Source: a virus. Taken from it: DNA of 53,341 nucleotides. Shown piece after piece: positions 4,850 through 53,341 of this stretch. Numbering within the stretch: position 1 is the stretch's first letter; each line of letters opens with the position of its first letter. A program made the translations under genes and the position numbers. The notes under the pieces are model-generated. The model worked only from the letters and a program-made list of their open reading frames with translations, searched no databases and was not told the origin of the DNA. The DNA lies in IMG/VR virus record IMGVR_UViG_3300047323_000682, positions 1-53,341 of that record; one strand, 5' to 3'.

Positions 4850-5169
4850 TCATCGCGGCAGATCCGCAGCGCCTCGCGGTTGTAGGCCAACTCCAACTTC
4901 CGCAACACGTTTTCCGGTATCTCGTAAACGTGTCGCGACATCTTGGCGAAGCGGGCGGACTCTTCGGTCGGGGCAGCGGCCAGATTGATTACGAACGTCG
5001 ACACTGTCTCCTGCCACTCCTCGAAGCCGTGCCGCTCGCCCAGCACCTGGATCGCATCAGCCAGCGTTTTCGACACAATCAGCGACCGTTTTTCGGCGCC
5101 GATCCGGTCCAGCAAGGCTTTCTCCTTGGCTCGCTTGTCCCGCTGAATATCCGCGTTGCTCTTGGCCAT
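4846..5169 (-). CDS. Hypothetical early protein, helical and charged
   Basis: 107 residues, very basic N-terminus (MAKSNADIQRDKRAKEKALLDRIGAEKR) followed by a helical core (LADAIQVLGERHGFEEWQET). Such short basic-start proteins in Pseudomonas phages are often annotated as DNA-binding, but no defined fold is recognised here. ATG at 5169 follows AGAGGTAG. Last gene of the leftward recombination operon before the plus-strand cargo cluster. Confidence 0.7.
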   Translation of the reverse strand: MAKSNADIQRDKRAKEKALLDRIGAEKRSLIVSKTLADAIQVLGERHGFEEWQETVSTFVINLAAAPTEESARFAKMSRHVYEIPENVLRKLELAYNREALRICRDD

Positions 5170-5254
5170 GGCCTACCTCTTCAATTCCGTGGGCCGGTAG
5201 ATCCAGCCATGTCTGTCGTCGGCGCTGGCGCACCTGGTTGTTGATTCGTCTCAT
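5057..5254 (-). CDS. Doubtful small basic protein overlapping neighbour
   Basis: 65-codon frame whose ATG overlaps the upstream stop by ATGA (5251-5254), as for the other coupled genes here. The first 30 residues (MRRINNQVRQRRRQTWLDLP...) look natural. The rest runs 113 bases out of frame into the gene 4846-5169 and looks non-coding. Either a small coupled gene or only a leader for the next one. Confidence 0.25.
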   Translation of the reverse strand: MRRINNQVRQRRRQTWLDLPAHGIEEVGHGQEQRGYSAGQASQGESLAGPDRRRKTVADCVENAG

Positions 5255-5709
5255 GCTGCTCTCTGCTGACTCCAGACACCCACGGCGTCGAACACCCGGG
5301 CGGCCTGCTCTTCAGTCAGCGATATCTCGGCGGGAATGGCGATCCAGCCCGACGCAACCAAGTGATTCGGGTTGCAGCTGTTTCGCAGTTCCAGGTAGTA
5401 ATGCTCGATGGCGTCGGTCAGGCGCTCGACCTTGTAGATTCCCTCCGGCGATATTTCCACCGACTTGACGTACTCGACGCCGCGCTCGTCTCGACACATG
5501 GCGCTGAGGTAGATCGTCCAGTGATAGGAGAAGTCGAACAGGGCATTGGCGATGGCCAGGCTCCGGATCTGCCGGCAGCTCTTCCAGTTCGCCATGATCT
5601 GGGTACCGCTCGGGTCGATGTTCACGACCGCGACATGATTGGTTCGCAACAGCGCCCGGCAGCTGCGTTCGGCCCGGACGAAGCCGTTATTCGGTTTGCG
5701 TTTGCTCAT
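5251..5709 (-). CDS. Hypothetical early phage protein
   Basis: 152 residues; family not recognised. Contains an aromatic-rich middle (ANALFDFSYHWTIYLSAMCRDERG) and a helical end (LTEEQAARVFDAVGVW). Start at 5709 overlaps the stop of the preceding gene by ATGA. It sits just downstream of the recombination genes in the same operon, so a DNA-metabolism role is possible but only positional. Confidence 0.65.
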   Translation of the reverse strand: MSKRKPNNGFVRAERSCRALLRTNHVAVVNIDPSGTQIMANWKSCRQIRSLAIANALFDFSYHWTIYLSAMCRDERGVEYVKSVEISPEGIYKVERLTDAIEHYYLELRNSCNPNHLVASGWIAIPAEISLTEEQAARVFDAVGVWSQQRAA

Positions 5710-11139: not shown

Positions 11140-11165
11140 AAAGCCGCATTTAGCGGCTTTTTTTT
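11140..11165 (-). terminator. Intrinsic terminator after 888-residue gene
   Basis: Stem AAAGCCGC (11140-11147), loop ATTTA, stem GCGGCTTT (11153-11160), with an A-run before and a T-run after, so it can work in both directions. Its right flank overlaps the TAA of the long minus-strand gene (11164-11166). Confidence 0.9.
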
Positions 11166-13830
11166 ATTTCATAGAAAGTAAGGTTAGCTCAAAGCCGTGA
11201 TGCTGCATGCTATATTTTCCAATTTTTACTATAACCCAGTCGCCTTCTTCTACCGTCGTGAATAGGCCAAGAACATTGGTTCCCTGATTGGACTTCTTGA
11301 CAAGTCCTCGGCCATTTAAACCGAACTCTACAAAAAAACCATAGTCTTGAACGGAAACAATCTGTGAATCTACCTCTGTTCCCTCCGGGTATTCTAATTC
11401 AAATTTAACATGTGCCTTAAATGCATGGTCATTTTCTGAAGCTCTATCGACAAATTTTACCAGTTCTCCTATGTTTAGAAGATTGACCTGCTTTTCATTG
11501 TTTAGAACTTTTGCCGGGCCTAGAAAGTATTTTTCGTGATAGCTTTTCAAATAGGTAGTTAGAATGGAACTGTTGCTTATGGCGGTCTGTCTGGTATCAA
11601 CTTTGAATGGACCCTTTCCAATCAAGTTGTCCGCAATTTTTCTGGCGGACTGATTTTCTCGGAATAAGACATCTTCAGACACTGTGGATAAATAATCAAT
11701 GTTGTGTATTAAATCTACATGTATCAAGCCGGCGGGAGAGATCGCTATTAAGTCGTCATGCGAAATTTCATGGGATTGCGCTTCGGACAATATACAGCCA
11801 GCCTGGATTAGCTTAACGATTTCCTCAATTGCTCTCTCGCTGGAGTGGCCTGCAGCCTGCAACGCCTCGAGGAGCGAACTGACCTTGTGAAAGCCCATAG
11901 TTCGATTAGGGCCGTATAGCTTTGCAGAGCTCTGTAGCCACTGGAGAATTGTAATGCGTATAAATGGGTCCGGGAGTGCGTCGTCTTCCTGAGCAAAGAA
12001 CATGTTCTTTATGTGTGACTCGCTGTCGGTGTAGTATTTTCTCTTGCCTTTTAATAAGATGCGGGCAACGAGATGTTTGGGAAGCTTATATTCACCCAAG
12101 CTCTGTCTCGTTTTCAGCAGCTCGTCTTCTCCAATGTGCCCGCTTTTGCAGAAATCTAAGAGAATCTCGAGTCCTTTTCGAATATTTCTGCCCGCCAATC
12201 CTGTAATTATTCGTTTGAAGAAGTAATCTTGAAAAAGAGACGAAATCATCGACTGTAGGTATGTGGCTACTTCCGCCCTTGAGCACTCTACTTTCATTTT
12301 GTTTGGAAGATAATAAGTGAATCGAGAATTTTGCGACTTTATTTCGCGCAAGGCATAATGTAAGCGTTTGTAGATAACTCGCTCTAGCAATGGCGGATCA
12401 ATGCGAAAGACCAAGTCTTTAATTACGGTATCCAGGGGTGGCTGATCTTGATACTGATCGTATGTGGTATCCCTCAATGGTAAAAATACCATGCATGGGA
12501 ACGAGTCTTTAAGCCAAGATGCTACTTCGAACATTAATAGCTGGTCGTCTCTGCTCCGTTTGTCACAGTTGTCAAGCACAACTGTTAGGAGTTTTTCGCT
12601 TCCGGTACACAAATAGTTAATCAAGCCATTGAGCGTGGCAAATTGGTCTCTTTGTAAGGCGTCAAGTTCCGCGAATATTGCGTCTATATATTTTTCTGAA
12701 TCTTTTGGGTATAGAGCTGCTTTTCCTCTTTCTACGCGGCCTATTTCTACCGAGTAAATTTTCTTCAATAACTCTAGAGTGTCAAAATCCGTATCTGGAT
12801 ATGATGCCTTTAATAACGAAATGCATTGATTTATTACCCAGTCATAAATCAATTCTCTAGTGAGTGGTGCTTTATTAAGGTTGATGTTTATCCAGAGGGT
12901 ATGATCGGTTACCGATTTAGGTAATGCTTCAAGACGAAGGTAGTCAGTGAATGTAGACTTTCCAGAGCCTACGCTTCCAATAAGGAGGCAGATTTCATTT
13001 TTTATTCTACCCAAGTTCGCGAGTTGATCGACAATTTCCTTGGGGGCACCCGTGTCATGGATAGGACGAGCGTCGACAGCTGTGAAGGGGAGGGCTGCGC
13101 GTATAATTTTATCTATGGGGGCGATATGTGATTGCTTACGAGTGGACGTTACATAGGCGTTGTGCGCGATCGATGCTCTGTCATCGAGAGAGTCGGGATT
13201 GAATAAGTATTTATATTCGATGGAAACGTTCGCGCCGAAGGAATTTTCACCTACCGTTTCGTTTGCGGTTACTTTTCCACCCAGCATCTGAGTTGGTTTG
13301 AAGTAACGCGCGGTGCTTTTAATTGATTTTAATAACGTGCTTGCTTTTTCTGTAATCGCTTTCTTGGACGCCAATCCTAGTAATTTAGTAAACTCCGGAT
13401 TGAGATTGTCAAAATTCTCTACCTTAAGAAATATTTCTGGTTCATCCTTGTCCCAATAACTAAGGTGGAAATCAACTCCATCTGTCGCGATTATTAATTC
13501 GCATGGATTAATGTTGCGTGGATATGAAGCGTTAATCTCTGTTGCGTACAGCCTGGCCTCTCTTAAGGCTTCTGAGAGATTTTGCCCAGGAGTCTTAGCT
13601 TCGATAATCATTGCTGGTAGCCCGTCAATGATTATGGCGTAGTCCGGGTAATAAAGCTTCTCCTTGGCACCTTTATCAATCTTAAGCTTTCTGATATCTG
13701 CTTTGGTTCGGATATCCGAATCATCAAATCCTAGCCCGTCAGGGGTCTGGGTTGACAAAAGTTTGTAGATGATTTTTTGTTCAACGTCACTTTCAGTTGT
13801 TGCTTTTATCCCTTGAAAGATACTGCTCAT
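11164..13830 (-). CDS. Nuclease-NTPase-S1 fusion, putative phage exclusion/defence
   Basis: 888 residues. (1) Residues 10-130 resemble the type I restriction HsdR N-terminal nuclease: a Glu-rich first helix (ESDVEQKII), PDYAII with D63, and IIEAKTP with E77 and K79, a PD-(D/E)xK core. (2) Residues 275-480 are a P-loop NTPase: Walker A GSVGSGKST at 285-293, Walker B LLTVVLDNCD with D420 and D423, and a sensor-like FLPLRD. (3) About 620-720 looks like a winged helix. (4) Residues 815-888 match an S1/OB fold (EGTEVDSQIVSVQDYGFFVEF, then GDWVIVKI). This plan (effector, STAND-like ATPase, sensor-like C-terminus) is that of antiphage proteins such as Avs, but the C-terminal half lacks obvious TPRs and ends in S1. 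It lies downstream of cI in the same orientation, like rexAB, and is AT-rich. Function is inferred. Confidence 0.8.
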   Translation of the reverse strand: MSSIFQGIKATTESDVEQKIIYKLLSTQTPDGLGFDDSDIRTKADIRKLKIDKGAKEKLYYPDYAIIIDGLPAMIIEAKTPGQNLSEALREARLYATEINASYPRNINPCELIIATDGVDFHLSYWDKDEPEIFLKVENFDNLNPEFTKLLGLASKKAITEKASTLLKSIKSTARYFKPTQMLGGKVTANETVGENSFGANVSIEYKYLFNPDSLDDRASIAHNAYVTSTRKQSHIAPIDKIIRAALPFTAVDARPIHDTGAPKEIVDQLANLGRIKNEICLLIGSVGSGKSTFTDYLRLEALPKSVTDHTLWININLNKAPLTRELIYDWVINQCISLLKASYPDTDFDTLELLKKIYSVEIGRVERGKAALYPKDSEKYIDAIFAELDALQRDQFATLNGLINYLCTGSEKLLTVVLDNCDKRSRDDQLLMFEVASWLKDSFPCMVFLPLRDTTYDQYQDQPPLDTVIKDLVFRIDPPLLERVIYKRLHYALREIKSQNSRFTYYLPNKMKVECSRAEVATYLQSMISSLFQDYFFKRIITGLAGRNIRKGLEILLDFCKSGHIGEDELLKTRQSLGEYKLPKHLVARILLKGKRKYYTDSESHIKNMFFAQEDDALPDPFIRITILQWLQSSAKLYGPNRTMGFHKVSSLLEALQAAGHSSERAIEEIVKLIQAGCILSEAQSHEISHDDLIAISPAGLIHVDLIHNIDYLSTVSEDVLFRENQSARKIADNLIGKGPFKVDTRQTAISNSSILTTYLKSYHEKYFLGPAKVLNNEKQVNLLNIGELVKFVDRASENDHAFKAHVKFELEYPEGTEVDSQIVSVQDYGFFVEFGLNGRGLVKKSNQGTNVLGLFTTVEEGDWVIVKIGKYSMQHHGFELTLLSMK

Positions 13831-21494: not shown

Positions 21495-21504
21495 ATTCAC
21501 CTGT

Positions 21505-21729
21505 AGCCAGGACAGCCCTCGGGAAGGCCTGGACACTGATAAGCCGGCAAGTGCAGTGCTTCTGGAAAACACCGGCAGCCCGCTCACCCTGACCTCACAT
21601 GCTTGCAGGGTGGCGCGAGACTGGATCAGCGAGATCGATGCAATGGGGCGTCGACGCTGGGAGGGTCTTTGGCGAACAGCGCGGAAAGACGCGCGCACCT
21701 ATTCAGGCTGCCTCGACAGACACCTTTAG
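21505..21729 (+). pseudogene. Open frame truncated beside hicB
   Basis: An open plus-strand frame without good start reads ...LTLTSHACRVARDWISEIDA, then MGRRRWEGLWRTARKDARTY, protein-like in composition but unidentified. It has only a GTG at 21556 without ribosome site, and its end runs 27 bases into the 3' end of hicB. It may be a gene cut when the HicAB module arrived, or a fortuitous frame. Confidence 0.3.
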
Positions 21730-48228: not shown

Positions 48229-48654
48229 ATGCCCGTATCCGAGAAAGACCGCGACATCCTCGCCCGCACGTTGTGGGGCGAGGCCCGCGGCGAATCCCTG
48301 GCTGGCCAGATCGCCGTGGCCTGGACCATCCGCAACCGAGTGAACGACGGCAAGGCCAAGTCGTGGTGGGGCGAGGGCTATGCCGGCGTGTGCCAGAAGC
48401 CGTACCAGTTCAGTTGCTGGAACAGGAACGACCCGAACTTCCCGTTCCTGAGCGGCGCGCGGCAGATCCCCTTTCGCGAACTGGCCCAGGCGCGGATTGC
48501 CGCTGACCAAGTGATCGATGGAAAGGTGCTGGATCCCACTGGCGGTGCCACCCATTACTACGCGACCACCATGCCCAAGGCGCCGGCCTGGGTGAAAGGC
48601 GCAAAGTTGACCCTGGCACTCGGTCACCATTTGTTCTTCAAGGATGTGCCATGA
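48229..48654 (+). CDS. Endolysin, SleB-like cell wall hydrolase
   Basis: 141 residues of the Hydrolase_2 (SleB/CwlJ) family: DRDILARTLWGEARGESLAG with the catalytic Glu in LWGEARGE, QIAVAWTIRNRV, YQFSCWNRNDPNF, ATHYYATTMPKAPAWVKGA. It cleaves peptidoglycan glycan strands. No signal sequence, so a holin is required. ATG at 48229 follows GGAGAAAAG; stop overlaps Rz start by ATGA. Confidence 0.9.
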   Translation: MPVSEKDRDILARTLWGEARGESLAGQIAVAWTIRNRVNDGKAKSWWGEGYAGVCQKPYQFSCWNRNDPNFPFLSGARQIPFRELAQARIAADQVIDGKVLDPTGGATHYYATTMPKAPAWVKGAKLTLALGHHLFFKDVP

Positions 48655-49181
48655 AACCAATCTGGCTGCGGGGCCTTCCGTACTTGGCTGCGCTGGGGCT
48701 GACAGTTGGGGCGCTGTTTGGCGCCTATTACCACGGCGTGACGGTCACGGATGAAAAGTGGCAGGCAAAATGGAGCACCCGTGACACCCAGGATGCCGAG
48801 GCGAGGGCGCTCAATGAGGTCGCTGCGCGCACCAGGGAGCAAGCCTACCAACAGTCAATCAACAAGGCGGTTCAAGATGGACAACGCATTATCGATCAAG
48901 CGACGGCTGATGCTGCTGCCGCTCGCGCTTCTGCTGACGGCGTGCAGCTCGCCGCCGCCAGCCTTGCCCGTCGACTCGCAGCCAGTGAAACCGGCGGAAA
49001 TACCTGCACTGCCGCCTCAAGCAAGGCAGCTGCCCGTGCCGCCGCTGTGCTTGCCGACGTGTTCAAGCGCGCTGATCAGCGAGCGGGAGACCTGGCTGCA
49101 GTTGCTGACCAAGCCAGAGCGCGGGGAGTGACTTGCGAGCAGGCTTACGACGGATTGATCCGATCGGCAGCACTTCATTGA
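48651..49181 (+). CDS. Rz: i-spanin Rz (DUF2514-like)
   Basis: 176 residues. One N-terminal membrane segment (YLAALGLTVGALFGAYYHGV), then a periplasmic alanine-rich coiled coil (DAEARALNEVAARTREQAYQ, ADAAAARASADGVQLAAASL) and a pair of cysteines. It spans the periplasm with Rz1 to fuse the two membranes at lysis. It overlaps the endolysin by ATGA. Confidence 0.9.
   Translation: MKPIWLRGLPYLAALGLTVGALFGAYYHGVTVTDEKWQAKWSTRDTQDAEARALNEVAARTREQAYQQSINKAVQDGQRIIDQATADAAAARASADGVQLAAASLARRLAASETGGNTCTAASSKAAARAAAVLADVFKRADQRAGDLAAVADQARARGVTCEQAYDGLIRSAALH
48877..49131 (+). CDS. Rz1: o-spanin Rz1 embedded in Rz
   Basis: 84 residues wholly inside Rz in the +1 frame. Lipoprotein signal RRLMLLPLALLLTAC with lipobox LTAC, then a proline-rich mature part (SSPPPALPVDSQPVKPAEIP, ALPPQARQLPVPP). 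This is the hallmark of nested Rz1 lipoproteins. ATG at 48877 has AAGGCGG upstream; a longer frame to 48751 is rejected. Confidence 0.88.
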   Translation: MDNALSIKRRLMLLPLALLLTACSSPPPALPVDSQPVKPAEIPALPPQARQLPVPPLCLPTCSSALISERETWLQLLTKPERGE

Positions 49182-49233: not shown

Positions 49234-49533
49234 ATGTACTTCATCATCACGCGCATGCGAGAAAAGGGTGTTGCCAGGGATTGGAAGGCGATCCGGCAAA
49301 CTGGCGGCATTCGTGCCGATATCAACATCAGGAATCAGATGTGCGATCCGTTGAACCGGACCAGCGATATCGCCGAGATCCGCCCGGCAGGCATGCCGCT
49401 TGATGCGGTACCGCTTCCGCCGCTGCTCGATGCGCGAATCTCAGGGATGGCGACCAACGCTTTCACGCTCAGCGGCCTGGAGGAAATCGACGGCTGCCTG
49501 TATGCGCAGTCGTGGTGGTGTAGAGAGATTTGA
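49234..49533 (+). CDS. Small protein under LexA box
   Basis: 99 residues: MYFIITRMREKGVARDWKAI, RQTGGIRADINIRNQMCDPL, TSDIAEIRPAGMPLDAVPLP. Not recognised. ATG at 49234 follows GAGAAGG. The LexA box suggests DNA-damage induction independent of CI. It follows the spanin genes but is probably a separate transcription unit. Confidence 0.65.
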   Translation: MYFIITRMREKGVARDWKAIRQTGGIRADINIRNQMCDPLNRTSDIAEIRPAGMPLDAVPLPPLLDARISGMATNAFTLSGLEEIDGCLYAQSWWCREI

Positions 49534-49596
49534 TCGTATCGTGAAGGGTTGTGAGCGATTCTGAGCAGCCTGCCGCCAACACTGTTCATGCTAGAC

Positions 49597-49619
49597 GAAA
49601 AAAACGCCCCGAAGGGCGT
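49597..49619 (-). terminator. Terminator of the RES gene
   Basis: ACGCCC (49604-49609), CGAA loop, GGGCGT (49614-49619), with a seven-A run at 49597-49603 that gives the U-tract on the minus strand. It touches the stop of the RES-domain gene. Confidence 0.85.
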
Positions 49620-50506
49620 CAAGTAAGCTGATTACTATGTAGTTTTTGAAGTCCCGGCAGGGGGCCACCTTTGTGTTTGGTGCTGAATACATGCTCAGTA
49701 TTGTTTTTATCTAAAATACAAGAGCACATGATATTTATATATTGCTCGCTTTTCGTTTTTTGAAGCTTTCCGATGACTATTATTTTTGCATCTAGATATT
49801 CTTTTGCAAATTCTCCCTTGAAGCAGATGTTGACTCCAGTAGGGTCTGCAACCGATTTGTAACTCCAACCTATGGTTTCTGGGTAGTCGTAGTAGTCTTT
49901 CGTGATGATGTCCGAGGCAAGATAGATGTGTTCTCTTTCGGATCCTGAGTCTCTGGAAAATTCCGAAACGAGGAAGTCCTCTAGAGCTTCGATCTTTGCT
50001 CTGCGAGAAATATTAAGTTCGTTTTTGTTATCCTGCGACAGTCCGATACTGTTCAATCTGCAGCTTGATTTAGATTGATAAATAATCAGTGCGAACAGAT
50101 CGCCGTCTTTAATCCTAGCTTCAGCCAAGGCAGTAGCAGGGGCTGTTGCGGTGTATAGCAGAGCTTCGCCTTTTCTGTTCACACGCCCTGACTGGACTCT
50201 TTCCGAAGGAGGCATCCATGCTGAGCCTAGTTCTAGCATCGATTTAGGGTTAAGCGGGTTTTCGGTTGGATCAATCCAGCGAACTCTGTAAAAAGCTGTT
50301 TCTGTTGGAATGTTTAGGATGTTAGCCTGCATCGCGAACGACTGATAACCGTTGGAGTACTCTGTACATAGTACGTCCATTATTCGGTTCGAAAGCTGCT
50401 CTCTTGTTAATCCTGAAAATTTTGAAGATCTGTATTTTTTAATCTTCTTTTTAAAAAGTTTTTTATCTGTTGCGTCAAGATGTGTAAGGAGTTCATTGTT
50501 AATCAT
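49619..50506 (-). CDS. RES-domain protein, solitary (cargo)
   Basis: 295 residues, AT-rich. A Lys-rich helical N-terminal 50, then a RES-type domain: FYRVRWIDPTENP with R74/R76, SERVQSGRVNRKGEALLYTA with R108, ATALAEARI with E129, and a later IYLASDI. RES toxins of type II systems degrade NAD+ by phosphorolysis and have about 150-230 residues. This one is longer and no Xre/DUF2384 antitoxin gene is adjacent, so it may be a cargo effector controlled otherwise. No clear ribosome site before ATG 50506. Assigned by motif pattern, not by search. Confidence 0.7.
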   Translation of the reverse strand: MINNELLTHLDATDKKLFKKKIKKYRSSKFSGLTREQLSNRIMDVLCTEYSNGYQSFAMQANILNIPTETAFYRVRWIDPTENPLNPKSMLELGSAWMPPSERVQSGRVNRKGEALLYTATAPATALAEARIKDGDLFALIIYQSKSSCRLNSIGLSQDNKNELNISRRAKIEALEDFLVSEFSRDSGSEREHIYLASDIITKDYYDYPETIGWSYKSVADPTGVNICFKGEFAKEYLDAKIIVIGKLQKTKSEQYINIMCSCILDKNNTEHVFSTKHKGGPLPGLQKLHSNQLT

Positions 50507-50863
50507 GTGCGGTTCTGATTGTTATGAGGAAGTTAAGATCTAATGTTTCAAATGTCTAGTCTACAGGTAAGTGCGCTATCCTAATTCATGATTTTGCAAT
50601 TTTGTTATATGTCTATATTTGTCATATGACTTCTACTAGTTAAAATCCCTAAGTGCCATTTTTCATTCGCTGCGTTCAGATTGCATCTCACTCTACTGGC
50701 ACTTCCCCGACTCCACCACCAACCGTACCACTTATATTCCAGTGCGACTCTCCTGCTGGACAAGGGTCGAAAAGGCGATATGCCTGTCCTGATAGGTCGC
50801 GCGCGCACCAGTAAATTACTCATTACCTCTGCATATTTGAGATCTAGGGCTTACTGCTGGCTG
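50507..50863. other. AT-rich gap upstream of RES gene
   Basis: 357 bases without a supported gene. The first 140 are very AT-rich and should hold the RES promoter. They include a perfect ten-base palindrome GTCATATGAC (50621-50630). AAGTGCCA (50651-50658) and TGGCACTT (50697-50704) form an inverted repeat. Overlapping frames on both strands in the second half have no ribosome sites. Confidence 0.5.
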
Positions 50864-51073
50864 TCACTCCGGCGTCATCATCACCGCGAGCGTCATCTTG
50901 ATAAATTCTTCATTCTTGTCGATGGCTTCCAGGGCACCGCGCACGTTGTCGGCGACATCGGCCGATCCGCGCTGCTCGACCCAGTTCGAAAGCTCCATGA
51001 TGGCGGCTTCCAGGGCGAGCTGGTTTTCGTTGAGCTTGAACAGCAGGGAAGGGAGCAGGTCTGAGTTTGGCAT
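50864..51073 (-). CDS. Small helical Pseudomonas protein
   Basis: 69 residues: MPNSDLLPSLLFKLNENQLA, LEAAIMELSNWVEQRGSADV, ADNVRGALEAIDKNEEFIKM. Fully helical; similar small proteins are common on Pseudomonas chromosomes and prophages but unassigned. ATG at 51073 has GGAGG at 7 bases. Confidence 0.7.
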   Translation of the reverse strand: MPNSDLLPSLLFKLNENQLALEAAIMELSNWVEQRGSADVADNVRGALEAIDKNEEFIKMTLAVMMTPE

Positions 51074-51172: not shown

Positions 51173-51194
51173 TGCGTGACTTTTGCGTGACTTT
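51173..51194 (+). repeat. Tandem TGCGTGACTTT repeat
   Basis: Two perfect adjacent copies of the 11-mer TGCGTGACTTT (51173-51183, 51184-51194), followed by TCACGC (51196-51201), the inverse of GCGTGA. Helical-turn spacing and location near the integrase suit arm-type protein binding sites. Confidence 0.65.
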
Positions 51195-51448: not shown

Positions 51449-51949
51449 CTACTCTTCGAAAGCTTTGACTGTCCGTGGAAAATCTTTCGGGTCAATGCGG
51501 GACGGGTGGAGATATCCACCACCTATGTTACGGCGTAGACAATGCAGCTTAATTCTAGGGATGTCGCGTATTAACTCAGACAATCTTTTTTCATGCCCGT
51601 TTCCGCAGGCGATGACAACGACATCCGCGCCAGCCATGATCTTCCGAGCATGCTGTTCGTTCAAGTCATCTGCCTGGCTGTTGTGGATCACACCGGATGG
51701 GTCTGTCGAGTAGTTCGGATAGAGATTTAGAATGTGGAAGCCGCCCCACCCCCAGTCCGCAGCCAAATTACCGCATTTGAAGACTGTCATGTCGTTCCGA
51801 ATCTCGTCAGCCATCGATGGGTTCGCGCACAGAAAGGCACCTATTTTTTTCGTTTTATCCCATACGCGGCTAAGAACGAAACGATAGTTGCCACAGTCGG
51901 ATGTGAGCGCGACCGACTCGATGATTGATTCGTGTTTGATAATGTTCAT
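51449..51949 (-). CDS. DUF1643 domain protein (cargo)
   Basis: 166 residues matching DUF1643: YRFVLSRVWDKTKKIGAFLC, ANPSMADEIRNDMTVFKCGN, GWGGFHILNLYPNYSTDPSG, DVVVIACGNGHEKRLSELIR. The family is of unproven function and is common in mobile elements. Minus strand between accessory genes and int, bracketed by the imperfect repeats at 51134 and 52126. ATG at 51949 taken because family members start near here; ribosome site modest. Confidence 0.8.
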   Translation of the reverse strand: MNIIKHESIIESVALTSDCGNYRFVLSRVWDKTKKIGAFLCANPSMADEIRNDMTVFKCGNLAADWGWGGFHILNLYPNYSTDPSGVIHNSQADDLNEQHARKIMAGADVVVIACGNGHEKRLSELIRDIPRIKLHCLRRNIGGGYLHPSRIDPKDFPRTVKAFEE

Positions 51950-52003
51950 CAGAGGCCTAAAAGTAGAATCGCGGTGTAATTCTGCTCCCATGCAGAGATG
52001 CAA

Positions 52004-52033
52004 AGCCCCGAAGGTTCGCGGCTTCGGGGCTTC
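52004..52033. terminator. Strong hairpin between DUF1643 and int
   Basis: Perfect 11-bp stem AAGCCCCGAAG (52004-52014) and CTTCGGGGCTT (52023-52033) with an eight-base loop; CTATTTT follows in plus, TTTGC in minus direction. Probably terminates integrase transcription leaving the int gene and insulates the DUF1643 unit. Confidence 0.75.
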
Positions 52034-52125
52034 TATTTTCGCCTCCATCCCTTAAATGCTGGCGAACGTGGCGGCGAGATTACCAGCGATGTCTCCGTAA
52101 TTCACTACTGCGATAGGTCGATTAA

Positions 52126-52156: not shown

Positions 52157-53341
52157 TTACGCCCCGTTGCGGGCAGGTGTTATGAGGTCCGCCCAGGCTT
52201 GCATCATTTCCCGGCGCTGCTCCAAGTAGGTGGCGTGGTTATACACGTCACGAATGAAGCTGCTATCCGCGTGAGCAAGTTGGCGCTCGATCCAGTCACG
52301 GTTGTAGCCTCGGCCGTTCATTTCGGTGGAGAACAGGTGCCGGAAGCCGTGAGGTGATTGTTTGCCGGTCAGACCGCATGAGTCCATAACGTTGTTCGCG
52401 TAATTGGTACCGATTGGCGCTGTGGTGACGTTGCGGTTTCTGAAAACGTAGCGCTGGCCGCCGGTGATCGGCAGCATGCTTTTCAGCAGTTCGACAGCCT
52501 GAGTTGAAAGCGGAACCGAGTGATCACGCCTCATCTTCATTTTGGCCGCCGGTGTTGTCCAGATAGCGGCATCGAGGTCGATCTCCGACCATTCGGCATG
52601 CCGCACTTCGCCCGGGCGCGAGGCGGTGTAGATCATCAGTAGGAGGGCGGTGCGCAACTGATGCCCTGCTGCGCAATCCCGGATCAACGCCATGGTCCTG
52701 GGCATCTCACTGAACGGCAGGAACGGGTGGGGTTTGTGTTGTCCCATCTTTTCGGTGACCGCGTGCATCTCGGCCGTCGGATTCACTTCAATCAACCCGG
52801 TGGCAATGGCGTAGCTAAACACCTGGCTCATCCGCTGACGAACCTTCACTGCTGTAGCCACGGAGCCGCGCTTCTCGACGCGGCGGATCAGGCCGATGAC
52901 ATCGGCCCGTTTGATGGCATCAATCTGCCGCTCGCCAAAGACGGGCAGTACATCCAGCTCCATGGCATTGCTGATCACCCGGTAGGTGCCAGCGGAGATT
53001 GTTCCCTTCCTGAAAGCCAGCCATTCGTCATAGACACGGCGGAAGGTGCGGCCCCCGGCTTCGATCAGTTCGGCCTTCTTTTCCCGTCTCGTGTTGCGCG
53101 GATCTAACCCATTCGCCACATCTTCTCGCGCCTCGTTTCGGCGTGCGCGCGCTTCCTTCAAACCCGTTTCAGGGTAAGTCCCGAAAGAAATTCGAACCTG
53201 TTTGTTGAGCCAGGTGAATCGAAAGTGCCAGCTCTTGACGCCGCTTGCCGCGACATAGAGGGAGAGCCCGAGCGCATCTGGAAGGGTGTAGGCCTTGTCC
53301 TTTGCCTTTGCCTGCTTGGCTGCAGTGTCCGTGAGTGCCAC
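52157..53341 (-). CDS. int: Tyrosine integrase, DUF4102-type N-terminus
   Basis: 394 residues. N-terminal arm-binding DUF4102 domain (ALTDTAAKQAKAKDKAYTLP, VKSWHFRFTWLNKQVRISFG, YPETGLKEARARRNEAREDV), core-binding domain about 110-200, catalytic domain with Arg in YTASRPGEVRHAEW, Lys/His region KMKMRRDHSVPLS, HGFRHLF box, and the Tyr in VYNHATYLEQRR. It inserts and excises the phage at att. The first codon is GTG at 53341-53339, the last base of the window; family members start with a similar MALTD, so the gene is probably complete. A longer protein would require sequence beyond the window. Confidence 0.93.
   Translation of the reverse strand: MALTDTAAKQAKAKDKAYTLPDALGLSLYVAASGVKSWHFRFTWLNKQVRISFGTYPETGLKEARARRNEAREDVANGLDPRNTRREKKAELIEAGGRTFRRVYDEWLAFRKGTISAGTYRVISNAMELDVLPVFGERQIDAIKRADVIGLIRRVEKRGSVATAVKVRQRMSQVFSYAIATGLIEVNPTAEMHAVTEKMGQHKPHPFLPFSEMPRTMALIRDCAAGHQLRTALLLMIYTASRPGEVRHAEWSEIDLDAAIWTTPAAKMKMRRDHSVPLSTQAVELLKSMLPITGGQRYVFRNRNVTTAPIGTNYANNVMDSCGLTGKQSPHGFRHLFSTEMNGRGYNRDWIERQLAHADSSFIRDVYNHATYLEQRREMMQAWADLITPARNGA

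Follow-up and report, generated by a model that had tools for sequence, protein, structure and literature searches.

The RES domain spans about 160 residues and is found mostly in operons with Xre genes (PMC2701414). RES enzymes are NAD+-consuming toxins of wide distribution, and there is dispute over their biological role. Their chemistries differ: NAD+ phosphorylase activity is ascribed to NatT and MbcT, ParT is an ADP-ribosyltransferase that modifies Prs, and GndR showed no toxicity (PMC12457610). The active site of NatT comprises R23, R82, Y93, S184 and N193, and a Flap inserted after R23 (residues 26 to 66) binds NatR (PMC11535050). Fusion of a HEPN/RES-NTD1 domain to RES has also been described (PMC3710099). 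With respect to phages, immunity had been attributed to no RES toxin-antitoxin system according to the 2024 NatT paper; NatT itself is not associated with phages, and its loss left the susceptibility to every one of more than 50 phages unaltered (PMC11535050), so that a RES domain need not mean defence. Phage-borne RES-HTH pairs were put forward in a 2022 survey as possible inhibitors of superinfecting phages (PMC9503650), and a search of titles and abstracts of the open-access literature found no paper in which a RES protein takes part in phage defence.

The DNA analysed here, called the window below, is a virus record of 53,341 nucleotides (IMGVR_UViG_3300047323_000682) in which ARAGORN detected no tRNA and whose lysis genes and integrase are nearest to those of Pseudomonas phages. 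Between the lysis genes and the integrase it contains a gene for a stand-alone protein of the RES family, together with the following features:

48651-49181, plus strand: Rz-like spanin gene (DUF2514), left border of the cargo slot
49234-49533, plus strand: phrog_5560 gene, convergent with the RES gene
49603-49620, minus strand: intrinsic-terminator-like hairpin (stem 49620-49603 and T run), overlapping the RES stop codon
49619-50506, minus strand: stand-alone RES-family gene, 295 residues (protein P0001), from its ORF, Pfam, the 11-member alignment and the fold
50588-50615, minus strand: promoter-like site upstream of the RES gene, 9 of 12 matches, not above chance (3 found, 3.4 expected)
50864-51073, minus strand: small phage gene phrog_12397, 69 residues, the only other gene between the RES and DUF1643 genes
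51449-52048, minus strand: DUF1643 protein gene, an accessory gene near the RES gene
52157-53341, minus strand: tyrosine integrase gene, which bounds the cargo slot on the right and continues to the last nucleotide of the record; its DNA is 75% identical to that of phage VW-6S

The RES reading frame is intact and has an ATG start; 500 single-base shuffles of positions 49501-50620 gave frames of at most 163 residues from stop to stop (mean 85). The first-pass annotation had described the gene as AT-rich, as having its own terminator and as prophage cargo, and all three descriptions agree with what was found. Its GC content is 41.3%, compared to 56.8% for the whole window, and its GC3 is 41.2%, compared to 57.5-82% in six nearby genes. 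The hairpin has a folding z-score of -2.0, with 10 of 200 shuffles equally good, and since the terminator scan as a whole did not rise above shuffles (4 found, compared to 3.3), the case for this terminator rests on its position and shape. Downstream terminators were found by the scan at 4 of the 11 loci of the family described below and are thus not a family trait. Besides the foreign GC content and the hairpin, the cargo description is supported by phage VW-6S, in which the slot between the lysis genes and the integrase holds other small genes.

Elsewhere in the window, a second AT-rich cargo gene (11164-13830, minus strand) lies beside an S24/HTH repressor and encodes a protein of 888 residues with a HSDR_N nuclease domain, a weak P-loop/STAND-like region and a S1 domain; its PADLOC match is only marginal, and it is likely a defence gene of its own. 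A Proteo-phage-1 RNA from Rfam (80.2 bits) is located at 21501-21580 on the plus strand, and a perfect 11-bp tandem duplication at 51173-51194, between the small phage gene and the DUF1643 gene, perhaps represents integrase arm sites.

The window protein belongs to a family of 11 proteins, the ten others, designated by their loci (L001 and so on), being 22-34% identical to it. A tblastn search of plasmids gave five records (two from Alteromonas, three from Listeria), of which one Alteromonas and one Listeria record were taken, a profile search then added three bacterial contigs and four virus contigs, and one more genome came from sampling. Five of the 11 members are on virus records, two on plasmids, where they are annotated as hypothetical proteins, and the rest on bacterial contigs. 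Single-sequence pattern scans of bacterial genome contigs and viral contigs revealed no relative of the window protein, a tblastn search of a phage collection gave no match to it or to the L007 protein, and the enlarged alignment, used in a fourth viral scan, added no locus. The family forms one clade with a support of 99/97 in a tree of 39 rows and 151 columns, beyond which the deeper branching is without resolution and several branches are long. In the genomes sampled it is rare: of 390 genomes from one order, two had a match below 1e-20, and on one of these two the draw was centred; for two phyla the count was 1 of 398 each, the sole match being each time the centre genome. Pfam RES in general was present in 41 of 150 genomes.

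Two of five pairs of relatives, the other three being saturated, allowed dN/dS to be estimated, and with values of 0.08 (L001/L004) and 0.07 (L010/L011, near saturation) both are under purifying selection. The gene is also lower in GC than its locus at L007 (46 compared to 60%), L010 (43 and 55%), L011 (43 and 59%) and L008 (53 and 58%). The copies on an Alteromonas plasmid (L001, 5911-6786) and a Halomonas contig (L004, 5986-6861) encode proteins of 88% identity, whereas the L004 protein and the phage copy L007 are 49% identical, which points to transfer between Alteromonas and Halomonas.

Pfam RES (PF08808) matched the window protein at 23.2 bits, exactly the curated cut-off, and over residues 96-137 only (24 bits in another scan). 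The ten other members are all below the cut-off, with 20.9 bits for L022, 20.7 for L005 and 19.4 for L006, and no match at E <= 1 in L001, L002, L004, L007, L008, L010 and L011. Sequence and profile searches of the PDB sequences found nothing, matches in the PDB being obtained by fold only. The catalytic core and the residues that are invariant in all 11 rows of the family alignment are as follows, the residue positions being taken from the reading frame:

49808-50299, minus strand: RES/ART catalytic core, residues 70-233
50287-50279, minus strand: R74 and R76
50185-50183, minus strand: R108
50155-50153, minus strand: Y118
50122-50120, minus strand: E129
49855-49853, minus strand: S218
49831-49829, minus strand: N226

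R108, Y118 and E129 are spaced by 10 and then 11 residues, and the active-site residues of the family have their counterparts in the R/R/Y/S/N set of NatT (PMC11535050). Loss of the catalytic Arg, Glu or Ser had been named beforehand as evidence against a RES enzyme; R108, E129 and S218 are kept in every member. The proposed homology was likewise borne out by structure comparison, in which solved RES toxins headed the lists for the predicted models of both the window protein (pLDDT 68.5, moderate) and its relative L011 (pLDDT 83.7). With the window model, MbcT, NatT and ParT entries filled rows 1-5 (Z 7.9-8.4), NatT having a Z of 8.4 (rmsd 5.6, 180 aligned), MbcT 8.4 (rmsd 4.4, 165 aligned) and ParT 7.9 (rmsd 4.3, 147 aligned), followed by another ART toxin domain (7.7), RES-Pp (7.2), a diphtheria-toxin chain (7.2) and VPA0770 (7.1). 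With the L011 model, rows 1-6 (Z 7.8-8.7) were entries of NatT (8.7, rmsd 4.8, 176 aligned), MbcT (8.5, rmsd 3.4, 156 aligned), ParT (8.4, rmsd 3.7, 148 aligned) and VPA0770 (7.8, rmsd 3.6, 146 aligned), and diphtheria-toxin-type chains and RES-Pp came next at 7.3. These Z values near 8 are middling on the tool's own scale, are derived from models only and have other ART toxins within 1 of them; that chains of diphtheria-toxin type and other ART chains come so close is a consequence of the common ART fold. The Foldseek matches were weak, with a best E of 4.9e-3 for the window model and 4.5e-4 for L011, RES toxins being the first four and the first six rows, respectively. Among viral models, Foldseek gave 13 matches with E <= 0.001; their TM-scores on the query were low throughout (0.24-0.36), most were to unnamed proteins from giant viruses or from actinobacterial phages, and they were given no weight. 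The assignment is based on fold, motif and profile together, and by these the window protein is well supported as a RES-fold enzyme of the ADP-ribosyltransferase superfamily.

The core is preceded by an additional region:

50327-50506, minus strand: N-terminal helical segment, residues 1-60, with predicted helices 4-12, 15-26 and 35-46

In the window model, of moderate confidence, these helices precede the RES strands, and a segment of three helices is predicted in the L011 model as well. Residues 1-38 of the window protein fall outside the ranges aligned to RES toxins. Within the segment, L10 and K21 are invariant in the family and I22 and F25 nearly so, the window protein having Y25. Of the Lys-rich helical extension initially described, the helical character is retained and conserved in the family, but the richness in Lys belongs to the window copy.

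The Xre_MbcA_ParS_C domain (PF09722), to which the family-wide antitoxin search was directed, was found beside none of the 11 family genes, nowhere in the window and in none of the five virus records of the family. Three of the 11 family records contain a PF09722 protein elsewhere, on another contig or about 190 kb away, beside a RES gene of its own. The same search, applied to ordinary RES genes as a control, found 10 of 11 with the domain no farther than about 0.5 kb away (nine over the cut-off and one below, with none at L064). The interval from the RES start to the phage gene at 50864 holds a single minus-strand ORF of at least 60 residues (50605-50823, 72 residues), which gave no Pfam hit at E <= 1 and was regarded as spurious. 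The small gene phrog_12397 was rejected as a hidden antitoxin, because phages VW-6S and phiAH14b and three Pseudomonas plasmids carry it, all of them records without a match to the RES protein. A repeat-RNA antitoxin of type III-like organization was also discarded, the two short tandem repeats found both being more than 600 bp from the RES gene. HTH genes lie upstream of the family gene at distances of 1.8 kb in L010 and 3.8 kb in L002, the former being near Xre-like-HTH but below that cut-off. The gene had been described as lacking a partner, with the interval from 50.5 to 51.1 kb singled out as a place where an antitoxin could be hidden; Pfam, PF09722 and the distribution of phrog_12397 revealed none there, and no recognisable antitoxin accompanies the gene.

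The neighbourhoods of the relatives vary. At L007, L010 and L011 the family gene is antisense within the tail module and adjoins a JAB/NlpC tail-assembly gene, and at L008 it lies among other phage genes, as read by eye. Genes for AbiLi, AbiLii and a PIN protein lie upstream of the L005 gene, the PIN gene with a weak Phd/YefM match, whereas the Listeria plasmid copy (L002) has a DUF1643 gene directly upstream (5055-5684), AbiQ/ToxN downstream and MazE also near. A GmrSD-like HNH gene is downstream of the L001 copy and a recombinase is near that of L006; the neighbours at L022 were read by eye only. PADLOC, run on ten neighbours from four of the six non-virus loci (all but L006 and L022), gave clear matches at two of the four, a marginal match of 15.5 bits for a L001 neighbour and none for the one gene scanned at L004; the window RES protein itself matched no family of PADLOC-DB 2.0.0 at E <= 1. 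The defence genes near L005 and L002 are suggestive only as a pointer to a defence role, for which the second, probable defence cargo gene of the same prophage also speaks. As toxin-antitoxin genes likewise occur near L005 and L002, plasmid maintenance is also possible.

The following mechanism is proposed for the window protein. The RES core probably binds NAD+ and would consume it by phosphorolysis or hydrolysis. A core of this kind without an antitoxin would have to be silent by default, and as no dedicated antitoxin gene was found, it is probably the structure of the lone enzyme itself that holds it inactive. The N-terminal segment is the best candidate both for restraining the core and for receiving the trigger, because it precedes the first Arg, unlike the Flap of NatT, and it is proposed to restrain the core until a signal arrives. 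The release signal would most likely come from an invading phage. The prophage would thus carry the RES gene as single-gene cargo, whose most likely use is to arrest the lysogen under attack by another phage (abortive infection). We infer the chemistry, the trigger, the defence role and the autoinhibition by the N-terminal segment, and on the whole reading, a stand-alone NAD+-consuming RES enzyme that is silent until triggered and serves as anti-phage prophage cargo, our judgement is evenly divided. More tentatively, the family may represent the first single-gene anti-phage effector with a RES fold, an antitoxin-free NAD+ phosphorylase or NADase with its own trigger-sensing N-terminal segment that is exchanged among phages, plasmids and islands in unrelated bacteria. 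If true, this would give RES enzymes an immune role, which the NatT paper assigns to no RES toxin-antitoxin system (PMC11535050). A phage-borne single-gene family without an antitoxin that complicates the genetics makes the immunity question directly testable in a laboratory strain.

Other explanations were considered. The same fold might carry out another chemistry, the protein acting as an ADP-ribosyltransferase on a target of the host or of a phage and serving the phage in lysogeny or lytic growth instead of depleting NAD+. ParT is indeed among the top structural matches, and the chemistries of RES toxins are described as varied (PMC12457610); however, the RES core alone cannot separate these chemistries and nothing found favours a protein target. 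This alternative is considered rather unlikely, though the foremost of those considered. A regulatory or stress protein without toxicity would find its precedent in GndR, which has the R-E-S residues and yet is non-toxic; but GndR has a Xre partner and sits in the core genome of its species (PMC12457610), whereas the present family is rare in the sampled genomes and often on mobile DNA, and we consider such a function improbable.

The gene could also be an orphan toxin or addiction gene, the antitoxin of which has been lost, acts in trans from the chromosome or is of another kind. Solo copies of toxin families are common (PMC2701414), PF09722 was the sole antitoxin domain searched across the family, and three of the 11 genomes or records do encode a PF09722 protein. 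These proteins are, however, distant and each beside its own RES gene, and the family is a separate clade, with the adjacent domain in none of its 11 members and a core far from that of the Xre-paired set; an orphan toxin or addiction gene is considered distinctly improbable. Finally, the RES gene and the DUF1643 gene at 51449-52048 might form a two-gene unit, with the DUF1643 protein as sensor or partner. Both genes are on the same strand in the window, and a DUF1643 gene is directly upstream of the Listeria relative, on an unrelated element. Against this, DUF1643 is near the RES gene in only 2 of the 11 cases, has no match in 8 of the 11 records and is on another contig in one; its relatives occur in 68 phage records, none of which matched the RES protein, and the 942 bp between the two genes in the window hold another gene. 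On this distribution the partnership was rejected as the main reading and is considered very improbable.

Compared to known systems, the family resembles the RES-Xre type II toxins (MbcT, ParT, RES-Pp and VPA0770) in fold and catalytic residues but differs from them in that their PDB chains comprise 144-183 residues and are paired with an Xre/MbcA/ParS-type antitoxin. With NatT of the NatR-NatT system it shares the RES fold (Z 8.0-8.7), the corresponding active-site residues and the presence of extra helices beyond the minimal RES. In the present family, however, these helices precede the first conserved Arg, no NatR-like gene adjoins, and a Flap of the NatT type is missing, R76 and R108 being separated by 32 residues compared to 59 between R23 and R82 in NatT (PMC11535050). 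In its proposed mode of action, a lone NAD+-consuming protein that is switched on by an invading phage, the family would also parallel single-gene NADase defences such as the TIR protein SpbK, which belongs to another enzyme family (PMC12847820).

The closest resemblance in sequence is to long RES proteins of the Zn-ribbon/HEPN-RES-NTD1 type (PF18870 and PF08808). In hhalign comparisons, the family matched 11 of these with an E of 4.4e-16 (probability 98.7) and 11 ordinary RES proteins with an E of 0.0047 (probability 7.4). The family core thus appears nearer to the long proteins than to the Xre-paired toxins, a nearness which is partly built in, because the long set was recruited with the family's own profile; that this profile chose the long type though ordinary RES genes are common provides some independent support. 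The long set comprises 12 proteins of 334-480 residues, with a Zn ribbon read from conserved cysteines and a PF18870 match below the cut-off in both of the two proteins scanned with Pfam. Further RES-like proteins of 256-315 residues with varied N-termini were encountered as centres (L023, L025, L026, L032 and L035), the two scanned, L025 and L032, having no PF18870 match, and the variety of long or lone RES proteins seems to go beyond the architectures known. The long proteins and the family have in common a core related by profile, the pattern around the active site and the lack of an adjacent PF09722 gene, which was found beside none of the 12 long RES genes. They differ in that PF18870 is found at E <= 1 in none of the 11 family members, the invariant N-terminal cysteines of the long proteins are missing from the family, and the profile match between them ends at the RES core. 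The initial description of a solitary, enlarged RES protein is therefore true of the gene but not new, since the long RES proteins are likewise without an adjacent PF09722 gene.
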